Source of the DNA: an uncultured Bacteroidales bacterium
Lineage (GTDB): Bacteria > Bacteroidota > Bacteroidia > Bacteroidales > F082
Length of the DNA: 35,761 nucleotides
Assembly: GCA_946405575.1 (NCBI GenBank)
Contig: CAMJHP010000028.1
Location: forward strand, 1 to 35,761
Direction of reading: 5' to 3'
Below the pieces are notes generated by a model. It worked only from the letters and a program-made list of their open reading frames with translations, did not search any database and was not told the DNA's origin. Both the position numbers and the translations under genes were made by a program. Shown piece by piece: positions 28,188 through 35,761 of the stretch. Every line of letters starts with the position of its first letter. Position 1 is the first letter of the stretch.

Positions 28188-29461
28188 TTCGATAGCCAAT
28201 TTGCAGGGTTTTGTCGGCTCTGTTCTTTAAGTAATTCAAAGTGCAGTTCCGTCTTGTTTTCCGTCTTGTTGGTATGCACCGTTCCCAAGTTCTGTTTGGT
28301 CTTCACTTTATCCCCGCGCTTCACCGTGACGTTTTCGAGGTTGGAATACACCGTAAAATACTCGCCATGACGAATGATGACGACGGTGTTGGAGCCCATC
28401 AGTTTGGTGACGCTGGTCACCTCGCCATCGAAGACGGCTCGGGCTTGGGCGTTTTCGGTGGTGGCGATGTCGATGCCGTTGTTGGTCACCGTGACCTTGT
28501 CGGAAACCATCGAGGTGTGTTTGCCATACGATGAGGAAATCACGCCACGTTCCACCGGCCAAGGCAGTTTACCCTTGTTGTTGACGAAGTTGGTGGAGAG
28601 CGTCTTTTCGGCTGGAGTCAAAGCCATTCCTTTCTCTTTCGGTGCGGTAGTTGTGGTCTTCCCCTTGCTGGCGTTTTTCTTGGCTTCTTCCTTGCGTTTT
28701 CTTTCGGCTTCGGCGTTGGCCTTTCGGATTTCCTCGGCGATGATGTCGTCGATGGCTTTTTGCAGTTTCTTGGCTTGTTGTTGCTTGTTTTTGATGTCTT
28801 GCTGGATGCTGCCTTCCTTCTTCTTGAGTTTGGCCACCTGTCCGTTGAGCTCTTTTTTCTCCTTTTGGAGGGCGTTTTGCTGTGACTTCTCGTCTTTCAG
28901 CAAGGAGTCTTGTTGCATACGAGCTTGTTGATGGGCTTCAACTTCACTGCTGATTTGTCTTTCAATGGCTGCGATTTGGTTCATTTTGGCTTTACGTGCT
29001 TCGCTGAATTCGCGGATATAGCGCAGACGTCGGAAGGCTTGGTTGAAGTCCTTGGAAGCGAAGATGAACCCCAGTCGGTCGTAATGGCTTCGGTTTTTGT
29101 TGGCAAAGACAATCATCTTGGCGTATTCCTTTTGCAGTTTGCTGAGGTCGGAATTGAGGGACTTGATGTTGCTTTGTCCTGACTTGATTTCCTCGTCGAG
29201 GACGGCGATTTGCTCATTATATGAGGTAATGAGTTTTTCGCGCTGCTTGATTTTTTTGTCGAGGAGGTTGACTTCATTCAGGGTCATCTCCTTGTCTTTT
29301 TTGGTCTTTTTCAGCAACTGGTTAGCCGTCGAAATCTCCTTCTGCAACGAATTGATTTCGCTCTGCAACTGCTTCTTCGACTTGCCTTTCGTCTTTTGGG
29401 CAAAAGTGGGCGAAACGAAAGCCAAGAGCAACAAAACCAATATGAAATGCAGTTTCTTCAT
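28184..29461 (-). CDS. envC: EnvC-like murein hydrolase activator (coiled coil + degenerate LytM domain)
   Basis: The 425-residue protein has the signal peptide MKKLHFILVLLLLAFVSPTF ending AQ, a long Lys/Gln/Glu-rich coiled coil (about 25-270), and a C-terminal M23/LytM domain (about 300-425: GVISSSYGKHTSMVSDKVTV, NNGIDIAT, DGEVTSVTKLMGSNTVVIIR, TELHFELL). The zinc ligands of active M23 enzymes are altered: NNGID replaces HxGID and ELHFE replaces HxHFE. That fits EnvC-type activators, which switch on amidases at the division septum without cutting themselves. It lies in the order DUF4292 - EnvC, common in Bacteroidales, with 4-base overlaps on both sides. Confidence 0.87.
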   Translation of the reverse strand: MKKLHFILVLLLLAFVSPTFAQKTKGKSKKQLQSEINSLQKEISTANQLLKKTKKDKEMTLNEVNLLDKKIKQREKLITSYNEQIAVLDEEIKSGQSNIKSLNSDLSKLQKEYAKMIVFANKNRSHYDRLGFIFASKDFNQAFRRLRYIREFSEARKAKMNQIAAIERQISSEVEAHQQARMQQDSLLKDEKSQQNALQKEKKELNGQVAKLKKKEGSIQQDIKNKQQQAKKLQKAIDDIIAEEIRKANAEAERKRKEEAKKNASKGKTTTTAPKEKGMALTPAEKTLSTNFVNNKGKLPWPVERGVISSSYGKHTSMVSDKVTVTNNGIDIATTENAQARAVFDGEVTSVTKLMGSNTVVIIRHGEYFTVYSNLENVTVKRGDKVKTKQNLGTVHTNKTENKTELHFELLKEQSRQNPANWLSK

Positions 29462-30027
29462 TGCTTTTTCAATAGTCGAATTCGCTCCATTTTGTCGGTG
29501 ATCTTCAGTGGGAAAGTCGTCTTCTCGTTCAATCGGATGTTGTTGTATCGAATTTTGGCGGAAAGCTCGCCCATCACGAAGGTTTTCAACTGAACCGTCT
29601 GGTTCTCAACGGGCGCATAGCCTTGATTATTGTCCAAAAGCAAAGTTTGTACCAAAGGCAAACTAAGCGGCATACCAAGTTGTGCGGAAATAGTGTCCAT
29701 CGGCTCGGCCAAATAGATCTTTTCCATGCGGTTGACAATCCAAACGGAATCATTGCTGACTTTGACCCGTAGCACTTCCATGCCCATCGTGGCGGTCACG
29801 TTGAGCCAAACGAGGCTGTCTTTACGCATCCTGAGCTGCCCAGACAAGTCGTTGTAAGCCATGCCGTTGCCTTCGGCTTGAATGGCCATGTTGGCCGTAA
29901 GCCATTCAAAAGTTTGCGGCTGCTGCAGCTGCACAATCTTTTTGCGCGAGGCGCAGGAAGTAGTCACCAGAAACAGTGCGAGGAATGCTATTTGAACCAA
30001 TCTTTTCATGTTAGGGTTCCTTGTCAT
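29458..30027 (-). CDS. DUF4292-type outer-membrane lipoprotein
   Basis: The 189-residue product (ATG 30027, or ATG 30009 six codons later) has the lipoprotein signal MKRLVQIAFLALFLVTTSC. The mature part contains MAIQAEGNGMAYNDLSGQLR, KDSLVWLNVTATMGMEVLRV and DSVWIVNRMEKIYLAEPM, the LolA/LolB-like beta pattern of DUF4292. It is shorter than many relatives, which may reflect loss of the C-terminal part. A role in lipoprotein or outer-membrane handling is inferred from the fold and from its place before EnvC. ATGA overlap with envC. Confidence 0.75.
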   Translation of the reverse strand: MTRNPNMKRLVQIAFLALFLVTTSCASRKKIVQLQQPQTFEWLTANMAIQAEGNGMAYNDLSGQLRMRKDSLVWLNVTATMGMEVLRVKVSNDSVWIVNRMEKIYLAEPMDTISAQLGMPLSLPLVQTLLLDNNQGYAPVENQTVQLKTFVMGELSAKIRYNNIRLNEKTTFPLKITDKMERIRLLKKQ

Positions 30028-30096: not shown

Positions 30097-31650
30097 CTAT
30101 GGTTCTATAAACACAGGCGTTCCTTTTGTGTTAGCTGAGTCAATCTCGATGAGTTTTTCTATAAATCGATGGTTTATTAATGACTCTAAATCCATCTCAG
30201 CAGGAGTGATGCTAAATGTCATATAGCTTTTTCTTGGTCTCTCTTTTGGATAATCCATTTCTAGCAACTCTTCCTTGCTCATTTCTTGGTGGTCAACTAT
30301 CTTATATGCTGAAAGTTTGTTGGGTTTGCCATATTCATAAAGAACCAATAAGGAAGCATTCCCGAAAAGGTTGTGCTTCTCTTCCATCGAACCTTTTGTC
30401 TTGCCTAGTCTTATGTTGTATATGTTGTGGGCACGAATCCAATCATAGTGTTTCTTCCCTTTGTAGCAGCCAACGAGTATAGTTTTGTCTCCGCCGAAGA
30501 AGTCTATAATATCTTGGTCAAAACGATTCCACTTGTAACATTCGAAGGGTTCAGCTGCTAACCAATAGTCGGAAACATCATTGGTGTCATACGGAACGGG
30601 GGTGGATTCGACAATTTGCCGCGTGGCTTCAAGACGACGGTTGGTGTATTTTGCCACATCTGCAATGACTATTTTTTGCAAAGCTGTAATCAGTCGTTCC
30701 ATTGCAATAATATCGGGTTGGCCATCAGCTGTTGTAGGTAGGGTTATATACTTGTTTTTTACAACGTTCCAACCTCCCAACTTGTTTTTGTATGAGTAAA
30801 TCGACAAATTTGTAACCTTGTTAATACAAGTCACCATGAACAAGTATGGGTTAGATTGAAGATTAATGCCAACATCTTTCCAACGAATAGCATAAGCATC
30901 AGACAAAACAGTAAAATCATGGGATTGATAGTACGCCCTGTAAACATCGCTATTGGAAGGAATTGATATAACGTTGCTAAGGATAGTTGCTCCATCTTTT
31001 GGTGAATAATAATTCAGTCCCTGATTCATAAAGCTTGAAGTCAGGCATGGAAGGGTGTACTTGCTTGTTGGCTGCTGAGGCAATTCTTTTGCCTTGTATG
31101 GAAGTTTTTTTGTGTTGATACGCTCAAACAAATCGCCCATTTTGAATTCTTGCCAATGAAAATTTCTGATACTTTCAAGAGCAGAACGATCATCAGGAGT
31201 GAGATTGTAATCATTGAGGCCAGTAGCAAGTAAGTAAGCTTCGAGTTTGCGCAAGCGTGATTCTTCGAGTTCGCGCACAAAGTTTTCCATAAAGGTAAAA
31301 TCTATTTCGCCTTCTGTCGTTTGCGGAAGGGAGATGTGCATTTCTTTTATTTTATTCCAAGTCCCCATATTGTCGAAAGAGAACACTTGACGCATATAGA
31401 AGAACTGTGTGGCAAGAAATATACCGACATGCTCATTTTTTATGATATCACCTGAAAGAGAAAATACATGGTTGTGGGTGGCCATCTTGTATGGGAAGTT
31501 ACGATAAAAGGCATTACCCCAAAAATCAATAGTTATGGTGTTAGAAGGAAATACTCGTGCTGGGCGATTTGTACGTCCTTTAATGCCATAATTGTCTAAA
31601 CCTGAGTTGATGAGATATACTCCTTTATCATTACAATCTTTTTGTTGCAA
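30097..31650 (-). CDS. hsdS: Specificity (S) subunit of a BcgI-like/type I restriction-modification system, abnormal start, extra C-terminal domain
   Basis: From TTG 31650 there are 517 codons. Two target-recognition domains are visible: TRD1 (up to about residue 110, with FLATQFFYMRQVFSF and MGTWNKIKEMHISLP) and TRD2 (about 168-305, starting FKMGDLFERINTK, ending YITLPTTADGQPD), each followed by a helical spacer (MENFVRELEESRLRKLEAYL; MERLITALQKIVIADVAKYT). Coding similarity continues upstream of the TTG to about 31698 (EYRIGNLFQAQTGDVD, a typical TRD start) but no in-frame ATG or GTG exists there, so the start is lost, non-standard or frameshifted. Residues about 352-517 form an extra C-terminal domain not usual in S subunits (ILVGCYKGKKHYDWIRAHNI, LLVLYEYGKPNKLSAYKIVD). 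It follows the nuclease-methylase gene closely. Confidence 0.75.
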   Translation of the reverse strand: MQQKDCNDKGVYLINSGLDNYGIKGRTNRPARVFPSNTITIDFWGNAFYRNFPYKMATHNHVFSLSGDIIKNEHVGIFLATQFFYMRQVFSFDNMGTWNKIKEMHISLPQTTEGEIDFTFMENFVRELEESRLRKLEAYLLATGLNDYNLTPDDRSALESIRNFHWQEFKMGDLFERINTKKLPYKAKELPQQPTSKYTLPCLTSSFMNQGLNYYSPKDGATILSNVISIPSNSDVYRAYYQSHDFTVLSDAYAIRWKDVGINLQSNPYLFMVTCINKVTNLSIYSYKNKLGGWNVVKNKYITLPTTADGQPDIIAMERLITALQKIVIADVAKYTNRRLEATRQIVESTPVPYDTNDVSDYWLAAEPFECYKWNRFDQDIIDFFGGDKTILVGCYKGKKHYDWIRAHNIYNIRLGKTKGSMEEKHNLFGNASLLVLYEYGKPNKLSAYKIVDHQEMSKEELLEMDYPKERPRKSYMTFSITPAEMDLESLINHRFIEKLIEIDSANTKGTPVFIEP

Positions 31651-31698
31651 ATCTACATCACCTGTTTGCGCTTGAAAAAGATTTCCAATCCTGTATTC

Positions 31699-31737
31699 AC
31701 CCCACTTAACGCTGATTAATTGTCGGTCAAGTGGGGT
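31699..31737. repeat. Inverted repeat at the R-M / S gene junction
   Basis: ACCCCACTT (31699-31707) and AAGTGGGGT (31729-31737) form 9-bp perfect arms around 21 bases. The right arm ends on the first base of the complemented stop codon of the nuclease-methylase gene, and the left arm borders the point where S-subunit coding similarity begins. Confidence 0.7.
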
Positions 31738-33779
31738 TATAGTTTTCCCAGGCCATCCTCCTTTTCATGTTTGTTCTTTAGGAGATTTGACACCTCCCAT
31801 GCGAGATAGTCAGCCACGGTACACTTAAAGTCTTCAAGGGATGGGCGTGTGTCAATAGGAGCGGTTTGGTTCCAATCGTCACCTCTATTGGGATCAATAT
31901 GTCCTTCATAGAAATCTTGTGGGCGCAGGTAATGGAGTGCTGAACTTCCATTGCGTACCACATTGACCACTTCTTCATAGCGTTCTCTTGCATGGTCGGT
32001 GTCGCGAAGATTCACAGAGGCTTTCTTGCGGTTAGAACGGGTGTAGCCATCGTTGCTGAAGTCGATGAAGCGAACAACATCACCCTTCTGATGTGCTTCA
32101 CCCACTCGGAATACATAAATATTTGTCTGTACAGAACTTTTGCCAATGAAAAGGTCAATGGGCATCTTGATGCTTGCCAATAGCGTGGAATGTTGAAGAA
32201 TACGGCGGTTGTAGTTGACCGCCTTGCCGCTACCAGCCGAGTTCTGGATAATGATGGCCGCATAACCGTGGCTCATCATGGAGAGTGCACGTTCTACAAA
32301 GACCATGCCGTTACCAGGCGCAGAGTATGGTGGGTTAAGGACAAAGGCATCGGCAGGGAAAGAACGCGAGGTATTGCCAAATCCATAGTTGCCGTCAAAA
32401 TCAAGAAGAGAGTCGCGATTCAAGATATTAGAGGAGCCGTCACCCATGAGTATCATATTGAGGATGGCAAGCATATAAATATTCTCCAGTATCTCAAGGC
32501 CAAGCAATTGATTGGCTTTGATTTCCGCCTCTTTAATGAGGAGTTTTTCGGGCGAATGAATATTGGCTTTGGCATCTGCCAGCATCTCGTTCATTGCAGC
32601 AACAAGTAGGCCTGCACTTCCAGTAGCAAAGTCCCAAACATAACTATTTCGATTTACACGTGCCAGCCGTACCAAAAGGGTGGCAACATAGGAAGGAGTG
32701 AGAACTACATCATTTAACTTATCTTGTGTAAACCCAAGCCATTGATACATTTCATTAAAAAGCCGCCCTGTGAAATCTGTCGACAATCCAATCTTGTAAT
32801 AAATGCCAAGATCATCAACAATCTTACAGAACACACGTTTAAGTTGACTTTCACCGCCAACAGGACGATTTATGTTTTCAGTGGTAAGGGTGTTTTGTAG
32901 CGTGCGTACAATAAGGGCTTGCTTGTCTTCAGGAATATTCTTTTGACTAAGGAAGGCTTCAATTTTTCGCACGATGATGTCGCCATCGCGATTGCCAAGT
33001 TCGGTGCTGGATGAAAGATCGGCTTTTTCTAAAGGTTTCACCTTGCCAGGAATACCAAGTGTGGCTATAATGGTGGCTGCAACAAGGTAAACGCGCCCAC
33101 TTTCCGAGATCCCTTTTTCGTTTTGGTAAATATCATTGTTGAGTTTGACAAGGCTGACATTAATCTCTTGCTCACGGCGTCGTTTAAGTTTTTCGAGTTC
33201 TTCTGGACTAAGGCTGAGATTACGCACTTGTTCAACAAATGTCTCAAAATGTTTTGGAGCGAGAAATGATAAATCCGAATAATCACCTACACACTGTCCT
33301 ACACCAAAATTATTCTTACCGACATAGTAAACCCCAATCTCATGATGTAATTTTTCGGTAGCTTGGTCGCGATAGCCAGTGATACCTATTGCAATAACAT
33401 GTTCATAAGAAGTGTAATGCAATAGAGCATTTGCATAGTGAACAGCACCGTTGACAGCATATTGACTGATATTCTTGTAATCAGGTTGTCCTTTGGCGTT
33501 TCTGTTGGCCACTTGCCCTTCGGCATCACGTTTGACAAGTTTGTCTTTATACCCTTTGAATTCTATAAGCACTGGCCACCAATTGCCGCGACTGTCTTTC
33601 AGTAGCAGGTTGCAATCTGGGCGATTACCGCCGCTGCCTCCTTGTTTCGACTCGTATTCAAGCAGTGCATTCTTTATTTCAGCATTGGGAGCATCCTGCT
33701 CTATGTAGTATGTGAGTTTGTATTGTTTGAGCCAACCATGTGCGAGGTCTGCTATTTGTGGTTCTACTGATTGAGCCAT
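31737..33779 (-). CDS. BcgI-like fused restriction nuclease and adenine methyltransferase
   Basis: The 680-residue protein joins a PD-(D/E)XK nuclease (RPDCNLLLKD with Asp55; WWPVLIEFKGY with Glu73 and Lys75) to an N6-adenine methyltransferase (helical part about 260-350; SAM motif I VWDFATGSAGLLVAA at about 381-395; catalytic motif IV VLNPPYS, Asn482-Pro-Pro-Tyr485). Together with a separate S subunit this is the layout of BcgI-type (type IIB/IIG-like) systems, where one polypeptide both cuts and methylates and the S subunit chooses the site. No hsdR helicase gene is present, which argues against classical type I. It starts at ATG 33779, 15 bases after the DUF5131 gene. Confidence 0.85.
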   Translation of the reverse strand: MAQSVEPQIADLAHGWLKQYKLTYYIEQDAPNAEIKNALLEYESKQGGSGGNRPDCNLLLKDSRGNWWPVLIEFKGYKDKLVKRDAEGQVANRNAKGQPDYKNISQYAVNGAVHYANALLHYTSYEHVIAIGITGYRDQATEKLHHEIGVYYVGKNNFGVGQCVGDYSDLSFLAPKHFETFVEQVRNLSLSPEELEKLKRRREQEINVSLVKLNNDIYQNEKGISESGRVYLVAATIIATLGIPGKVKPLEKADLSSSTELGNRDGDIIVRKIEAFLSQKNIPEDKQALIVRTLQNTLTTENINRPVGGESQLKRVFCKIVDDLGIYYKIGLSTDFTGRLFNEMYQWLGFTQDKLNDVVLTPSYVATLLVRLARVNRNSYVWDFATGSAGLLVAAMNEMLADAKANIHSPEKLLIKEAEIKANQLLGLEILENIYMLAILNMILMGDGSSNILNRDSLLDFDGNYGFGNTSRSFPADAFVLNPPYSAPGNGMVFVERALSMMSHGYAAIIIQNSAGSGKAVNYNRRILQHSTLLASIKMPIDLFIGKSSVQTNIYVFRVGEAHQKGDVVRFIDFSNDGYTRSNRKKASVNLRDTDHARERYEEVVNVVRNGSSALHYLRPQDFYEGHIDPNRGDDWNQTAPIDTRPSLEDFKCTVADYLAWEVSNLLKNKHEKEDGLGKL

Positions 33780-33794
33780 AATGACAATTATTAT

Positions 33795-34520
33795 TTACAC
33801 CGGCATTGCTTGAAACACTTTGCCGTTGATTAATTTTCCGTTTTTGTGTTTGTTGCGCTTTACTCCATCGCTGCCCCAAGTGCCCCATTGTTTGAAGAAG
33901 AAAGCTGAATCTTGTTGCTTACATTGCTCCTGTATGCTAAGTACCCACTCTTCGCGCATGGGTCGTGCCTGCGGACCACTTTCACCACCTACAATCACCC
34001 AATCGATATAGGTCAAGTCCAGCTCGCCCAAGTCTTCTATCAGTGGTTCACAAGAAAGGAACCGTATCGGGGCATTCAACACACGCAAGCAATCAATGCG
34101 TTGTTTTGACTGTTGCGCCTCTACCGTTACACCGAGCCAAACATTGTCCGGAACGTCATTCATCAAGAAATATTCAGCCATACGCTCGGCACGCTTGGTG
34201 AGCAACTGGTAGCGGTGCTGCGGGGTGTGGCGGATGGTGTCCATCACACGGTCAATGAAATTGAAAGGCACATTTTGGTGGAACAGGTCACTCATCGAAC
34301 AAACAAAGATAGTGTGCGGCTGTCGCCATTCCAATGGTTCATATAAACACTCCTCATGAAGCCTCACTTCAAAACCATTGGCATATTTTTCTAACCCCAT
34401 AGCTTTCAGTCTTCGCGACATCATCTCGGCATAGCAATGAGCACATCCTGGCGATGTCTTGGTACAGCCCGTGACGGGATTCCAAGTCTTGTCAGTCCAT
34501 TCTATCTTTGTGGTTTTCAT
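33795..34520 (-). CDS. Phage Gp37/Gp68-family three-Cys protein (DUF5131)
   Basis: The 241-residue protein has the hallmark start KTTKIEWTDKTWNPVTGCTK and the three-cysteine motif C-x6-C-x2-C (Cys19, Cys26, Cys29 in GCTKTSPGCAHCYAE), suggesting an Fe-S cluster as in radical-SAM-like proteins. Other family motifs: IFVCSMSDLFHQ, YQLLTKRAERM, NVWLGVTVEAQQ, WVIVGGESGPQARPM and FFFKQWGTWG. Reaction unknown; nucleic-acid modification is a common guess. It lies directly after the TcmP gene (five-base gap), its named genetic partner, and directly before the nuclease-methylase. Confidence 0.85.
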   Translation of the reverse strand: MKTTKIEWTDKTWNPVTGCTKTSPGCAHCYAEMMSRRLKAMGLEKYANGFEVRLHEECLYEPLEWRQPHTIFVCSMSDLFHQNVPFNFIDRVMDTIRHTPQHRYQLLTKRAERMAEYFLMNDVPDNVWLGVTVEAQQSKQRIDCLRVLNAPIRFLSCEPLIEDLGELDLTYIDWVIVGGESGPQARPMREEWVLSIQEQCKQQDSAFFFKQWGTWGSDGVKRNKHKNGKLINGKVFQAMPV

Positions 34521-34525
34521 ATTAT

Positions 34526-35473
34526 TTATTTCCTTCCTATAATTTGACTTGCAATTTTAATTGCAGTTGGGTTGTTCGATGCACATGCAAAATGAAATAT
34601 TGGCGTATTACTTGTATTACAAAGAACAAGAGGTTGTTCCGTCACATAATCAAAAATAGTTTTCAATCTCTCGACGTATAATTGTGCAATCTTCGAAACA
34701 GGTTCTTTGACTTTTTCTATTATTTCTGCATCGCCAAAAAGTGTGTTTTCTGTCCGTTTCTTATAAAAATAATCACGTAATAGTACTTCATCAAGGCCAA
34801 AAAACGAGGTCAACTTGTTTATCAACTTTAGATCACCTTTTCTATCAAGAAGTCGGTTGATGATAACACCTGTCGGAATTAGAATCCACAAATCAGTGCC
34901 AGTGTGCTGGAGTTGTTTTATTGAGTCCCAATCCACCTGCATTCCAAACGGGTCAAGAAGAACAAGGGCTTTCAACTTATTGTTTTGATGCATTGCATTG
35001 GCGAGTTTGACAATCTCTTGGTTGGCATCGTGAGGACGGAAAACCAGTTTTTTGCCATTGCGTAAAGGCTCTAATCTAGCTTCCAAAGCAGCATTCGATT
35101 TTTCGTCAAGGTCAACAAAATAGTAATAATCAAAACCTCTTTGTTTGATGTTCAAAACTCTTTCAGCAGCTCCTTTGTAAGGAGTGAGTTCGACCTCTGA
35201 TAATTGTTGTTCATCTATCAAATTCAACATAAGTTGTTTTCCATCTTCTGTTGTTTCCTCGTTTCTCGAACCGCTGCCAGCAAAACCATCAAAGTAAATA
35301 AGCTCCCAAAGGTTGTTGTCACGGTGTTTGTTCATAATGGTCAGATACGCATTGACATATTTTTCGAAAGCGTCGAGTTTTTCCTCTGTCCATTTACCAC
35401 CCCATGAACTTGATGGTTCAGATGCCATAAAAGATCTTCTGTCCTCAGATTCTATGTTATATTGTGTTACCAT
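34526..35473 (-). CDS. tcmP: Three-Cys-motif partner protein TcmP
   Basis: The 315-residue protein matches the TcmP family: SSSWGGKWTEEKLDAFEKYV near the start, LIYFDGFAGSGSR with the SAM-like glycine motif (about 59-70), YFVDLDEKSNAALEARL, ALVLLDPFGMQVDW (about 169-182, in the place of a methyltransferase motif IV) and WILIPTGVIINRLL. This suggests a Rossmann-fold methyltransferase-like protein whose substrate is unknown. The family is named for its repeated linkage to three-Cys proteins, which is seen here with DUF5131 five bases downstream. It is the first gene of the four-gene island. Confidence 0.85.
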   Translation of the reverse strand: MVTQYNIESEDRRSFMASEPSSSWGGKWTEEKLDAFEKYVNAYLTIMNKHRDNNLWELIYFDGFAGSGSRNEETTEDGKQLMLNLIDEQQLSEVELTPYKGAAERVLNIKQRGFDYYYFVDLDEKSNAALEARLEPLRNGKKLVFRPHDANQEIVKLANAMHQNNKLKALVLLDPFGMQVDWDSIKQLQHTGTDLWILIPTGVIINRLLDRKGDLKLINKLTSFFGLDEVLLRDYFYKKRTENTLFGDAEIIEKVKEPVSKIAQLYVERLKTIFDYVTEQPLVLCNTSNTPIFHFACASNNPTAIKIASQIIGRK

Positions 35474-35519: not shown

Positions 35520-35761
35520 TCATTGTTTTAACTTACTCATAATTGCTTCATAGTGTTCTTGATAGGTTTTGTCAGGCTCTTTCAGCAGTTTCAAAGCCTT
35601 TTTCATGTGTTTTTCGGCTTCTTTGTAGTCGCCTTTCTTGTAAAGTACCCAGGCATGTGTGTCAAGATAGGTCGGGTTATTAGGTTCAGCAGTGATGGCT
35701 TTGGTTGACATTTCCAAGGCTTTGTCCAAGTCTTGGCCTTTCACGGCGAGATAATAGGCGT
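35520..35761 (-). CDS. C-terminal part of a TPR protein (cut by window edge)
   Basis: The frame is open to the window end and stops with TGA at 35520-35522. At least 79 residues are visible. They form TPR helices: LDKALEMSTKAITAEPNNPT, YLDTHAWVLYKKGDYKEAEK, HMKKALKLLKEPDKT. The YLDTHAWVLYKKG segment resembles the TPR protein that precedes DUF4292-EnvC genes in Bacteroidales. In that arrangement DUF4292 would follow directly; here the restriction island lies between. The tail QEHYEAIMSKLKQ may be native or may result from truncation by the island. Confidence 0.75.
   Translation of the reverse strand, partial: AYYLAVKGQDLDKALEMSTKAITAEPNNPTYLDTHAWVLYKKGDYKEAEKHMKKALKLLKEPDKTYQEHYEAIMSKLKQ

Follow-up and report, generated by a model that had tools for sequence, protein, structure and literature searches.

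A BcgI-like Restriction System of Bacteroidales with a Predicted −1 Frameshift into Its Specificity Part, beside a TcmP–DUF5131 Pair

Introduction

The Type IIB restriction enzymes BcgI (PMC3874165, PMC4027205) and BsaXI (PMC11997821) consist of two copies of a subunit that carries nuclease and methylase in one chain (RM) and one copy of a specificity subunit (S) with two recognition domains, a 2RM:1S arrangement. In the single-chain Type IIB enzymes AloI, TstI and HaeIV, RM and S form one polypeptide; TstI is a homotetramer (PMC4027205). The present work concerns a four-gene island with likenesses to both kinds, found in a stretch of 35,761 nucleotides (nt), here called the window, that makes up positions 1 to 35,761 of contig CAMJHP010000028.1 (forward strand) of assembly GCA_946405575.1. 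The source is an uncultured Bacteroidales bacterium (lineage F082), whose 3.09-Mb draft genome is in 114 contigs and 74% complete. All four genes are on the minus strand and encode, in this order, TcmP, DUF5131, RM and S. From its sequence, S is predicted with high confidence to be made by −1 ribosomal frameshifting at the end of the RM gene.

With BcgI and BsaXI, the island shares the one-chain RM and the second component with two recognition domains, but its S lacks an ordinary start and is a predicted frameshift extension of RM. The predicted frameshift product resembles AloI, TstI and HaeIV; however, their fusion is fixed, whereas the window system would also yield free RM. In the Type I system EcoKI, hsdM and hsdS likewise lie in different frames at their junction, and an engineered M–S fusion is functional in vivo, its nuclease needing extra free M in vitro; EcoKI differs in that its genes undergo coupled translation and its fusion was made in the laboratory (PMC3510504). 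The word "frameshift" is absent from the main texts on the Type I relatives, TstI and BsaXI (PMC3874165, PMC4027205, PMC11997821).

The best explanation of the whole island, to which a probability of about three in four is given, is that a programmed −1 frameshift at GGGAAAA makes S and that TcmP–DUF5131 is an add-on defence module.

The RM–S Junction

The S frame lies at −1 relative to RM and opens at position 31764, 28 nt ahead of the end of RM. From there downstream, no in-frame ATG, GTG or TTG is met until the TTG at 31650, 86 nt past the RM stop. A preliminary description of the window had listed S from this TTG (30097–31650), which is implausible, since conserved residues of S (VKWGEYRIGNLF) are encoded upstream of it in a frame that is open to 31764.

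The RM end carries a set of elements like those that drive −1 frameshifting in dnaX and in insertion sequence (IS) elements, namely a slippery heptamer of the form X_XXY_YYZ, a short spacer and a hairpin, with a Shine–Dalgarno-like stretch upstream as a possible further stimulator (PMC5009743, PMC4066793; Table 1). In contrast to those cases, the signal here stands at a gene end, where it would append the whole DNA-recognition subunit of a restriction enzyme. An Rfam search gave no match.

Most ribosomes would presumably stop at the RM stop codon and release free RM, while a minority would slip and go on to make a single RM–S chain, about 1,230 residues long and about 140 kDa in mass. This chain and free RM would then assemble into a 2RM:1S enzyme as known for BcgI and BsaXI, with the slip rate setting the subunit ratio and coupling S to RM. 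Frameshifting would be a sensible arrangement, in that one message could give both forms. Long S-like open reading frames (ORFs) at three other loci (L203, L256, L271) were considered as in-frame RM–S fusions of this RM family and rejected, having no match to it.

The gene content, common strand and motifs of the island, and the gaps of 5 nt between TcmP and DUF5131 and of 15 nt between DUF5131 and RM, are as the preliminary description had them and are borne out by ORF positions and profile matches. The RM protein has an N-terminal RPD...EFK nuclease-like motif (read by eye) and an N6 methylase domain in the same chain. In S, Pfam places Methylase_S in two stretches and PADLOC Specificity_II scores 157 bits, which indicates two recognition domains.

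Table 1. Positions of the island's genes and of the elements at the RM–S junction in the window.
Feature	Position	Strand	Remarks
TcmP	34526..35473	-	short type, 315 aa; TIGR04474 142 bits (cut-off 53), PADLOC PDC-M41A 364 bits
DUF5131	33795..34520	-	241 aa; PF07505 361 bits (cut-off 28.9), PDC-M41B 385 bits, PDC-M30B 388 bits
Nuclease-methylase (RM, BcgI A-like)	31737..33779	-	680 aa; PADLOC REase_MTase_IIG 766 bits, Pfam N6_Mtase 70 bits
S (specificity) part, -1 frame	30097..31749	-	550 aa counted from the predicted slip site; Methylase_S 67 bits
S C-terminal extension	30097..30609	-	about 170 aa
Shine-Dalgarno-like stretch AAGGAGGA	31756..31763	-	6 nt upstream of the slippery site; from sequence
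Slippery heptamer G_GGA_AAA	31743..31749	-	one codon ahead of the RM stop
Zero-frame RM stop TAA	31737..31739	-	
Hairpin 5' arm CCCCACTTGAC	31726..31736	-	6 nt past the heptamer; 11 bp
Hairpin 3' arm GTTAAGTGGGG	31700..31710	-	

Conservation of the Predicted Frameshift Signal

Related RM–S junctions were gathered by order- and family-level genome searches and from viral contigs, plasmids and phages. The RM family includes members in Escherichia coli prophages and on an Acinetobacter plasmid; a phylum-wide search of 395 genomes for more, the window's own genome apart, yielded just distant members, in 5 other genomes and at 27–30% identity. The longest downstream frame is at −1 in 25 of 28 unique junctions. 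Further counts refer to a set of 24, which leaves out L286 (at a contig edge), L288 (26% identity, with its own ATG), L296 (no S found), L299 and L300 (own ATG, +1 frame) and the duplicates L068, L294, L295 and L297. These 24 junctions are related to one another, and the counts are thus not independent.

A canonical X_XXY_YYZ heptamer occupies the last two RM codons in 22 of the 24. In the same genes, such heptamers are found at 178 of 18,749 codons (0.95%), and at other gene ends of the fetched loci in 19 of 828 cases; the HsdS junctions among those gene ends have none (0/19). The binomial value of 3e-36 for this enrichment assumes independence of what are related sequences and is best taken simply as a very small number. 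The heptamer itself differs between members, being GGGAAAA, GGGAAAG, AAATTTT or AAAAAAG (the last in L292 and two E. coli strains), and in L065, GGGAAAA stands at the homologous place and is followed by a later stop. In 15 of the 24 junctions, the interval between −20 and +40 nt relative to the RM stop is free of ATG, GTG and TTG. Two loci in other genomes that share the complete gene order of the island (L195 and L197, see below) carry the same signal as the window.

Conservation of the Hairpin

The stretch downstream of the heptamer folds better than mononucleotide shuffles in 23 of the 24 junctions, with z-scores from −2.3 to −11.8 (L287 has z −0.4). For the window hairpin, dinucleotide shuffles gave z −3.0, and 2 of 200 shuffles were equally stable. 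Covariation was tested on 15 of the 24 junctions, chosen because they share a gapless layout. Among these, 99.4% of the pair cells are standard pairs and nine cells are changed on both sides; when the partners are slid by 1–3 columns, only 37.6–49.7% pair. The covariation score was reached by none of 500 shuffles.

A synonymous leucine change in the 5' arm (CTT/CTC) tracks an AAG/GAG (Lys/Glu) change in the 3' arm, so that the position pairs as UA in seven junctions, CG in five and UG in three. C occurs opposite G only, which, at a synonymous site, points to selection on the RNA.

Members in E. coli

DNA similar to the locus of phage PhiR12_3 was found in 33 of 5,426 complete E. coli genomes, with at least 80% of the locus in 21; the RM part as query found 29 of the 5,426. 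The E. coli members examined use G_GGA_AAG and A_AAA_AAG. Together with C_CCA_AAG, these are the most efficient heptamers in E. coli in the presence of stimulators, according to a survey that reported 69 clusters, five of them from prophages (PMC4066793).

In RefSeq, RM and S are annotated as separate genes. The S of L302 starts 68 nt past the RM stop, and L303, L306 and L307 each have S split into two pieces, of which the leading one is marked partial, lacking both N- and C-terminus. In L304 (NZ_CP027340.1), an IS1 element follows a frameshift-type RM gene and interrupts S. Eight E. coli records match L304's 98.3–98.4% pattern over the RM part, L304 being the one examined. The IS1 in L304 is annotated with "programmed frameshift", and the RM–S junctions inspected carry no such note.

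The TcmP–DUF5131 Pair

Both TcmP and DUF5131 strongly match the components of PDC-M41 and PDC-M30 in PADLOC, with DUF5131 matching M30B as well as M41B. These are unnamed phage-defence candidates, to which the present analysis adds a recurrent place in or near restriction–modification (R-M) operons.

TcmP comes in a short type of about 300–318 aa, to which the window's protein belongs, and a long type of about 370–400 aa. The structural model of the window's TcmP (predicted local distance difference test, pLDDT, 80.8) has a predicted class I S-adenosylmethionine (SAM) methyltransferase fold, Rossmann-like with a glycine-rich motif I. Its motif residues are D62-G63-F64-A65-G66 and D174-P175-F176-G177, and its fold matches, many of them tied, include the RNA methyltransferases RlmJ and Trm1. 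The model of DUF5131 (pLDDT 92.1) is a partial TIM barrel of the type seen in spore photoproduct lyase (SPL) and RlmN, with SPL as its best fold match. By sequence, DUF5131 matches no solved structure up to E = 1, and a PDB sequence search with all four proteins gave nothing useful, TcmP returning two chance-level rows.

The motifs FDGFAGSG and LLDPFG of TcmP and C19-x6-C26-x2-C29 of DUF5131 are conserved among relatives, the serine of FDGFAGSG less so, and the three cysteines are invariant in the alignments. The canonical radical SAM motif is C-x3-C-x2-C. Since DUF5131 does not have it, the protein is termed radical-SAM-like; its C-x6-C-x2-C spacing sets it apart from SPL, RlmN and the viperin-like radical-SAM enzymes.

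Within the order sample of 393 genomes, TcmP scores over its cut-off in 38 and DUF5131 in 101, and the strong DUF5131 group mostly adjoins TcmP. Among named genomes, Bacteroidales have the nearest TcmP relatives, many of them from rumen and gut, and other Bacteroidota have more distant ones. A second, lower-scoring DUF5131 group (about 138 bits) is found in many genomes of the order, including the window's own (L002, G000:C37:21803-22447), and mostly in genomes without a TcmP found. At six of seven further loci (L138–L144), TcmP is paired with or near a weak DUF5131 relative of 227–281 aa, labelled "Gp88-like", rather than a true DUF5131; the seventh, L143, stops at a contig end and shows neither gene.

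In the literature, TcmP is named in tables of PMC12445080 (beside Hna) and PMC12429752, and the words "three-Cys-motif" occur in PMC7387457. DUF5131 and PDC-M41 were not found in the open-access literature searched, where Gp37Gp68 was found in one paper.

DUF5131 may be a radical-SAM enzyme that acts on nucleic acid, with TcmP as its SAM-binding, methyltransferase-like partner. Together they would either target the nucleic acid of phages, by modification or attack, or serve as a backup where a phage blocks restriction. In Type I operons, rlo/PrrC-type genes back up restriction. It is likely that TcmP–DUF5131 is an add-on defence module that provides a second layer of phage defence. The preliminary description had suggested that the pair may add a second modification or act as a linked module, and such a DNA or RNA modification and a joint function are both tentative.

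Neighbourhoods of the Pair

The neighbourhoods were analysed in two overlapping sets, several of the L194–L273 loci being apparently on the same contigs as L092–L100. The first set comprises 46 loci (L092–L137) around strong DUF5131 or short TcmP genes; L101 contains just a TcmP part. By labels and Pfam, R-M genes are beside the pair or within a few genes of it at 15 of the 46. They belong to Type I systems in L094, L098, L104, L112, L122, L124, L129 and L133 and to Type III systems in L109 and L123, are Eco57I-like in L110 and L120 and MmeI-like in L130, and include an LlaJI-like nuclease in L107 and a DUF2357/PD-(D/E)XK protein in L105. The 82 operon neighbours from 39 of these loci matched 471 PADLOC families, and the 25 commonest of their 105 Pfam families include Methylase_S (5), ResIII (4), Eco57I (3), HSDR_N (3), N6_Mtase (2) and MmeI_Mtase (2). 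As a control, 61 neighbours were taken from beside random gene pairs, which came from 29 contigs out of 40 drawn at random in the same genomes; no R-M model was among the 23 PADLOC families hit by them and no R-M family among the 25 commonest of their 135 Pfam families.

The second set comprises 80 loci with short-type TcmP, the best 80 of 287. DUF5131 is within two genes downstream of TcmP at all 80 (as a weaker relative in L224), with a second TcmP-like gene in between in L244 and L248. The gap between TcmP and DUF5131 is −4 to +4 nt in 67 of the 80, so that the pair forms a two-gene unit. An R-M gene was found within 5 kb at 32 of the 80 loci, compared to 1 of 40 random stretches (mean 10.7 kb, counted whole), and was directly adjacent and co-oriented at 24. 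S genes were counted at 18 loci and R genes at 14. These R-M counts are lower bounds, since some large unlabelled neighbours of TcmP carry no annotation.

Operons of Types I, IIG and III contain the pair or have it nearby, in many cases immediately next to the S or R gene; a Flavobacterium locus (L265) is an example with a Type I operon. Recurrent orders are HsdR-TcmP-DUF5131-HsdS-x-HsdM and HsdM-HsdS-TcmP-DUF5131-HsdR, often with gaps of a few nucleotides. The labels HsdM, HsdS, HsdR, RhuM and Gp88-like were assigned from sequence, and the Pfam tallies and single scans back the restriction labels. The exact order TcmP-DUF5131-RM-S is also that of L195 and L197, with RM proteins of 46–47% identity to the one in the window.

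Two points weigh against the reading of the pair as a module of restriction systems. By the detection used, 48 of the 80 TcmP loci have no R-M gene within 5 kb. In addition, the R-M reference proteins were partly drawn from TcmP neighbourhoods, which favours detection there; the Pfam and PADLOC tallies are free of this bias. The neighbourhoods taken together nevertheless make an accessory role of TcmP–DUF5131 in restriction operons well supported. The expectation that the pair would stand beside R-M genes above chance thus held for restriction systems generally and not for the BcgI-like kind specifically. The BcgI-like subfamily is no regular partner of TcmP, being seen with it in only 2 of the 80 loci plus the window.

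Other genes recur around the pair as well. RhuM-family genes are in or beside TcmP and R-M operons in L100, L101, L109, L122, L141 and L259, among others. RloB-like genes, partly with an AAA-ATPase gene, are near DUF5131 in L118, which has TcmP, and in L127 and L133, which have no recognised TcmP. A possible interpretation is that RloB-like genes are a second kind of DUF5131 partner.

The C-Terminal Extension of S and the Genomic Setting

The S of the window ends in an extension that is common to L195, L197 and L285/L324 and is found more distantly in proteins of 740–840 aa. Of the relatives that show no TcmP in the flanks examined, 16 have a complete S protein, and none of these carries the extension. 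In L285, the extension is present and no TcmP was seen upstream; its S runs off the contig. The extension was considered as a TcmP-specific adaptor domain, and this role was dropped because the domain is equally frequent in genomes that have the pair (4 of 45) and in comparison genomes (4 of 45). The comparison set was hand-picked from genomes without a strong DUF5131–TcmP pair plus RM-bearing genomes, and one of its loci (L325, G846) has a DUF5131 about 5 kb away. With the exception of G878, the matches from the genome search are only longer proteins (open frames of 448–839 aa, mostly 740–840). The extension also occurs at 66% identity on a viral-collection contig (L323, IMGVR_UViG_2799112682_000001), of which the fetched 15 kb contain nothing that matches RM, TcmP or DUF5131 of the window.

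The island is flanked by a TPR and a DUF4292 gene (29458–30027 and 35520–35759), which adjoin in 11 of 14 other loci and are 5.5 kb apart in the window. In L347, they are 4.1 kb apart with other genes in between. The same draft genome has a second TPR–DUF4292 locus (L344, G000:C5:60541-61098) with no island between the genes, which are 87% and 69% identical to those of the window; either a mixture of two strains in the draft or a duplication could account for this.

Alternative Explanations

TcmP–DUF5131 and the BcgI-like genes could simply be neighbours in a defence island that do not cooperate, a reading that falls somewhat short of an even chance. Most TcmP pairs have other neighbours, and at nine other close Type IIG places in the order sample, no pair was seen in the flanks examined, several of which were ended by contig ends. 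The even distribution of the S extension between genomes with the pair and comparison genomes fits this reading as well. On the other hand, order and close spacing are identical in L195 and L197 despite the 46–47% identity of their RM proteins, and tight embedding of the pair in Type I operons is seen repeatedly.

It is rather unlikely that the pair is instead a nucleic-acid repair or base-modification set that protects the host, for example, against restriction damage, and not an anti-phage effector. The fold matches described above could be taken that way, since SPL is a DNA-repair enzyme and RlmJ and Trm1 are among the tied matches of TcmP, but the listing of the pair by PADLOC as a phage-defence candidate and its many restriction neighbours argue for the defence module.

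Several observations weigh against frameshifting as the source of S. An ATG, GTG or TTG is nearby in 9 of the 24 junctions (L063, L065, L066, L069, L070, L152, L282, L287 and L301). At two of these, L282 and L301, the RM stop is overlapped by an ATG, so that ordinary coupling is possible there. The heptamer of L070 is non-canonical (GGATTTT). Relatives from Ligilactobacillus and Lactobacillus (39–42% identity) start S from an ATG and have neither heptamer nor −1 frame. G_GGA_AAA, the type found in the window, has been called inefficient, as measured in E. coli and not on Bacteroidota ribosomes (PMC4066793). Within the covariation data, two of the five measures are unremarkable: the pairs changed on both sides number three, which 23 of 500 shuffles match, and the further pair types number ten, matched by 261 of 500. 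Finally, L287 has no stable hairpin in the tested stretch, and its RM gene looks frame-broken.

Some of these observations could be accommodated if S were a separate protein made by translational coupling, with re-initiation in the −1 frame at a nearby non-AUG codon such as ATA or GTA. The hsdM–hsdS junctions of Type I systems are coupled (PMC3510504), low initiation at AUA is mentioned in PMC4066793, and the overlapping ATGs and the Ligilactobacillus starts would fit. Of the 24 junctions, 15 have a GGAG stretch in the 23 nt upstream, a count made by eye and without a background rate. However, differing codons follow the heptamer (ATA, GTA, ACT and others), whereas heptamer and hairpin are kept; the heptamer would be without purpose in coupling and is absent from 19 of 19 HsdS junctions examined, and a hairpin would be expected to hinder initiation. 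Coupling is therefore considered improbable as a general explanation, and −1 frameshifting is preferred.

That S is a broken gene or an assembly error with an accidental change of frame is very improbable. Some E. coli copies are indeed annotated as partial S pseudogenes, seemingly split in two, and one S is interrupted by IS1, but the same −1 layout recurs in 24 unique junctions from many genomes and most S frames are long and open, those on complete E. coli chromosomes included.

Conclusions

Ribosomal frameshifting as a means to make restriction subunits was not found in the open-access literature searched, a search whose scope excludes supplements and leaves prior mention possible. Restriction enzymes were not found in the excerpts of three papers on frameshifting (PMC3711429, PMC5009743, PMC10885494), one of which names methyltransferases among the phage genes known to contain a frameshift (PMC10885494).

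A broader proposal, put forward tentatively and with more doubt than confidence, is that a Type IIB family found in Bacteroidota, in prophages of enterobacteria and on an Acinetobacter plasmid uses −1 frameshifting to fix how much recognition part is made relative to catalytic part, with free RM and the RM–S fusion coming from one message. In some Bacteroidales, this family would be coupled to a plug-in TcmP–DUF5131 pair, a radical-SAM enzyme with a methyltransferase-like partner, that also inserts next to S subunits of unrelated restriction systems and would alter the phage nucleic acid engaged by the restriction complex.

The predicted frameshifting is directly testable in E. coli, because E. 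coli prophages carry the RM family. For annotation, it would mean that S subunits of this kind lose their N-terminus in automated gene calling. The widespread TcmP–DUF5131 pair can now be assigned a definite setting, within restriction operons and close to them. If the frameshift reading is true, this would be, as far as the open-access literature shows, the first R-M family with a recognition subunit made by programmed frameshifting, and it would explain how the two-chain and one-chain Type IIB enzymes are connected.

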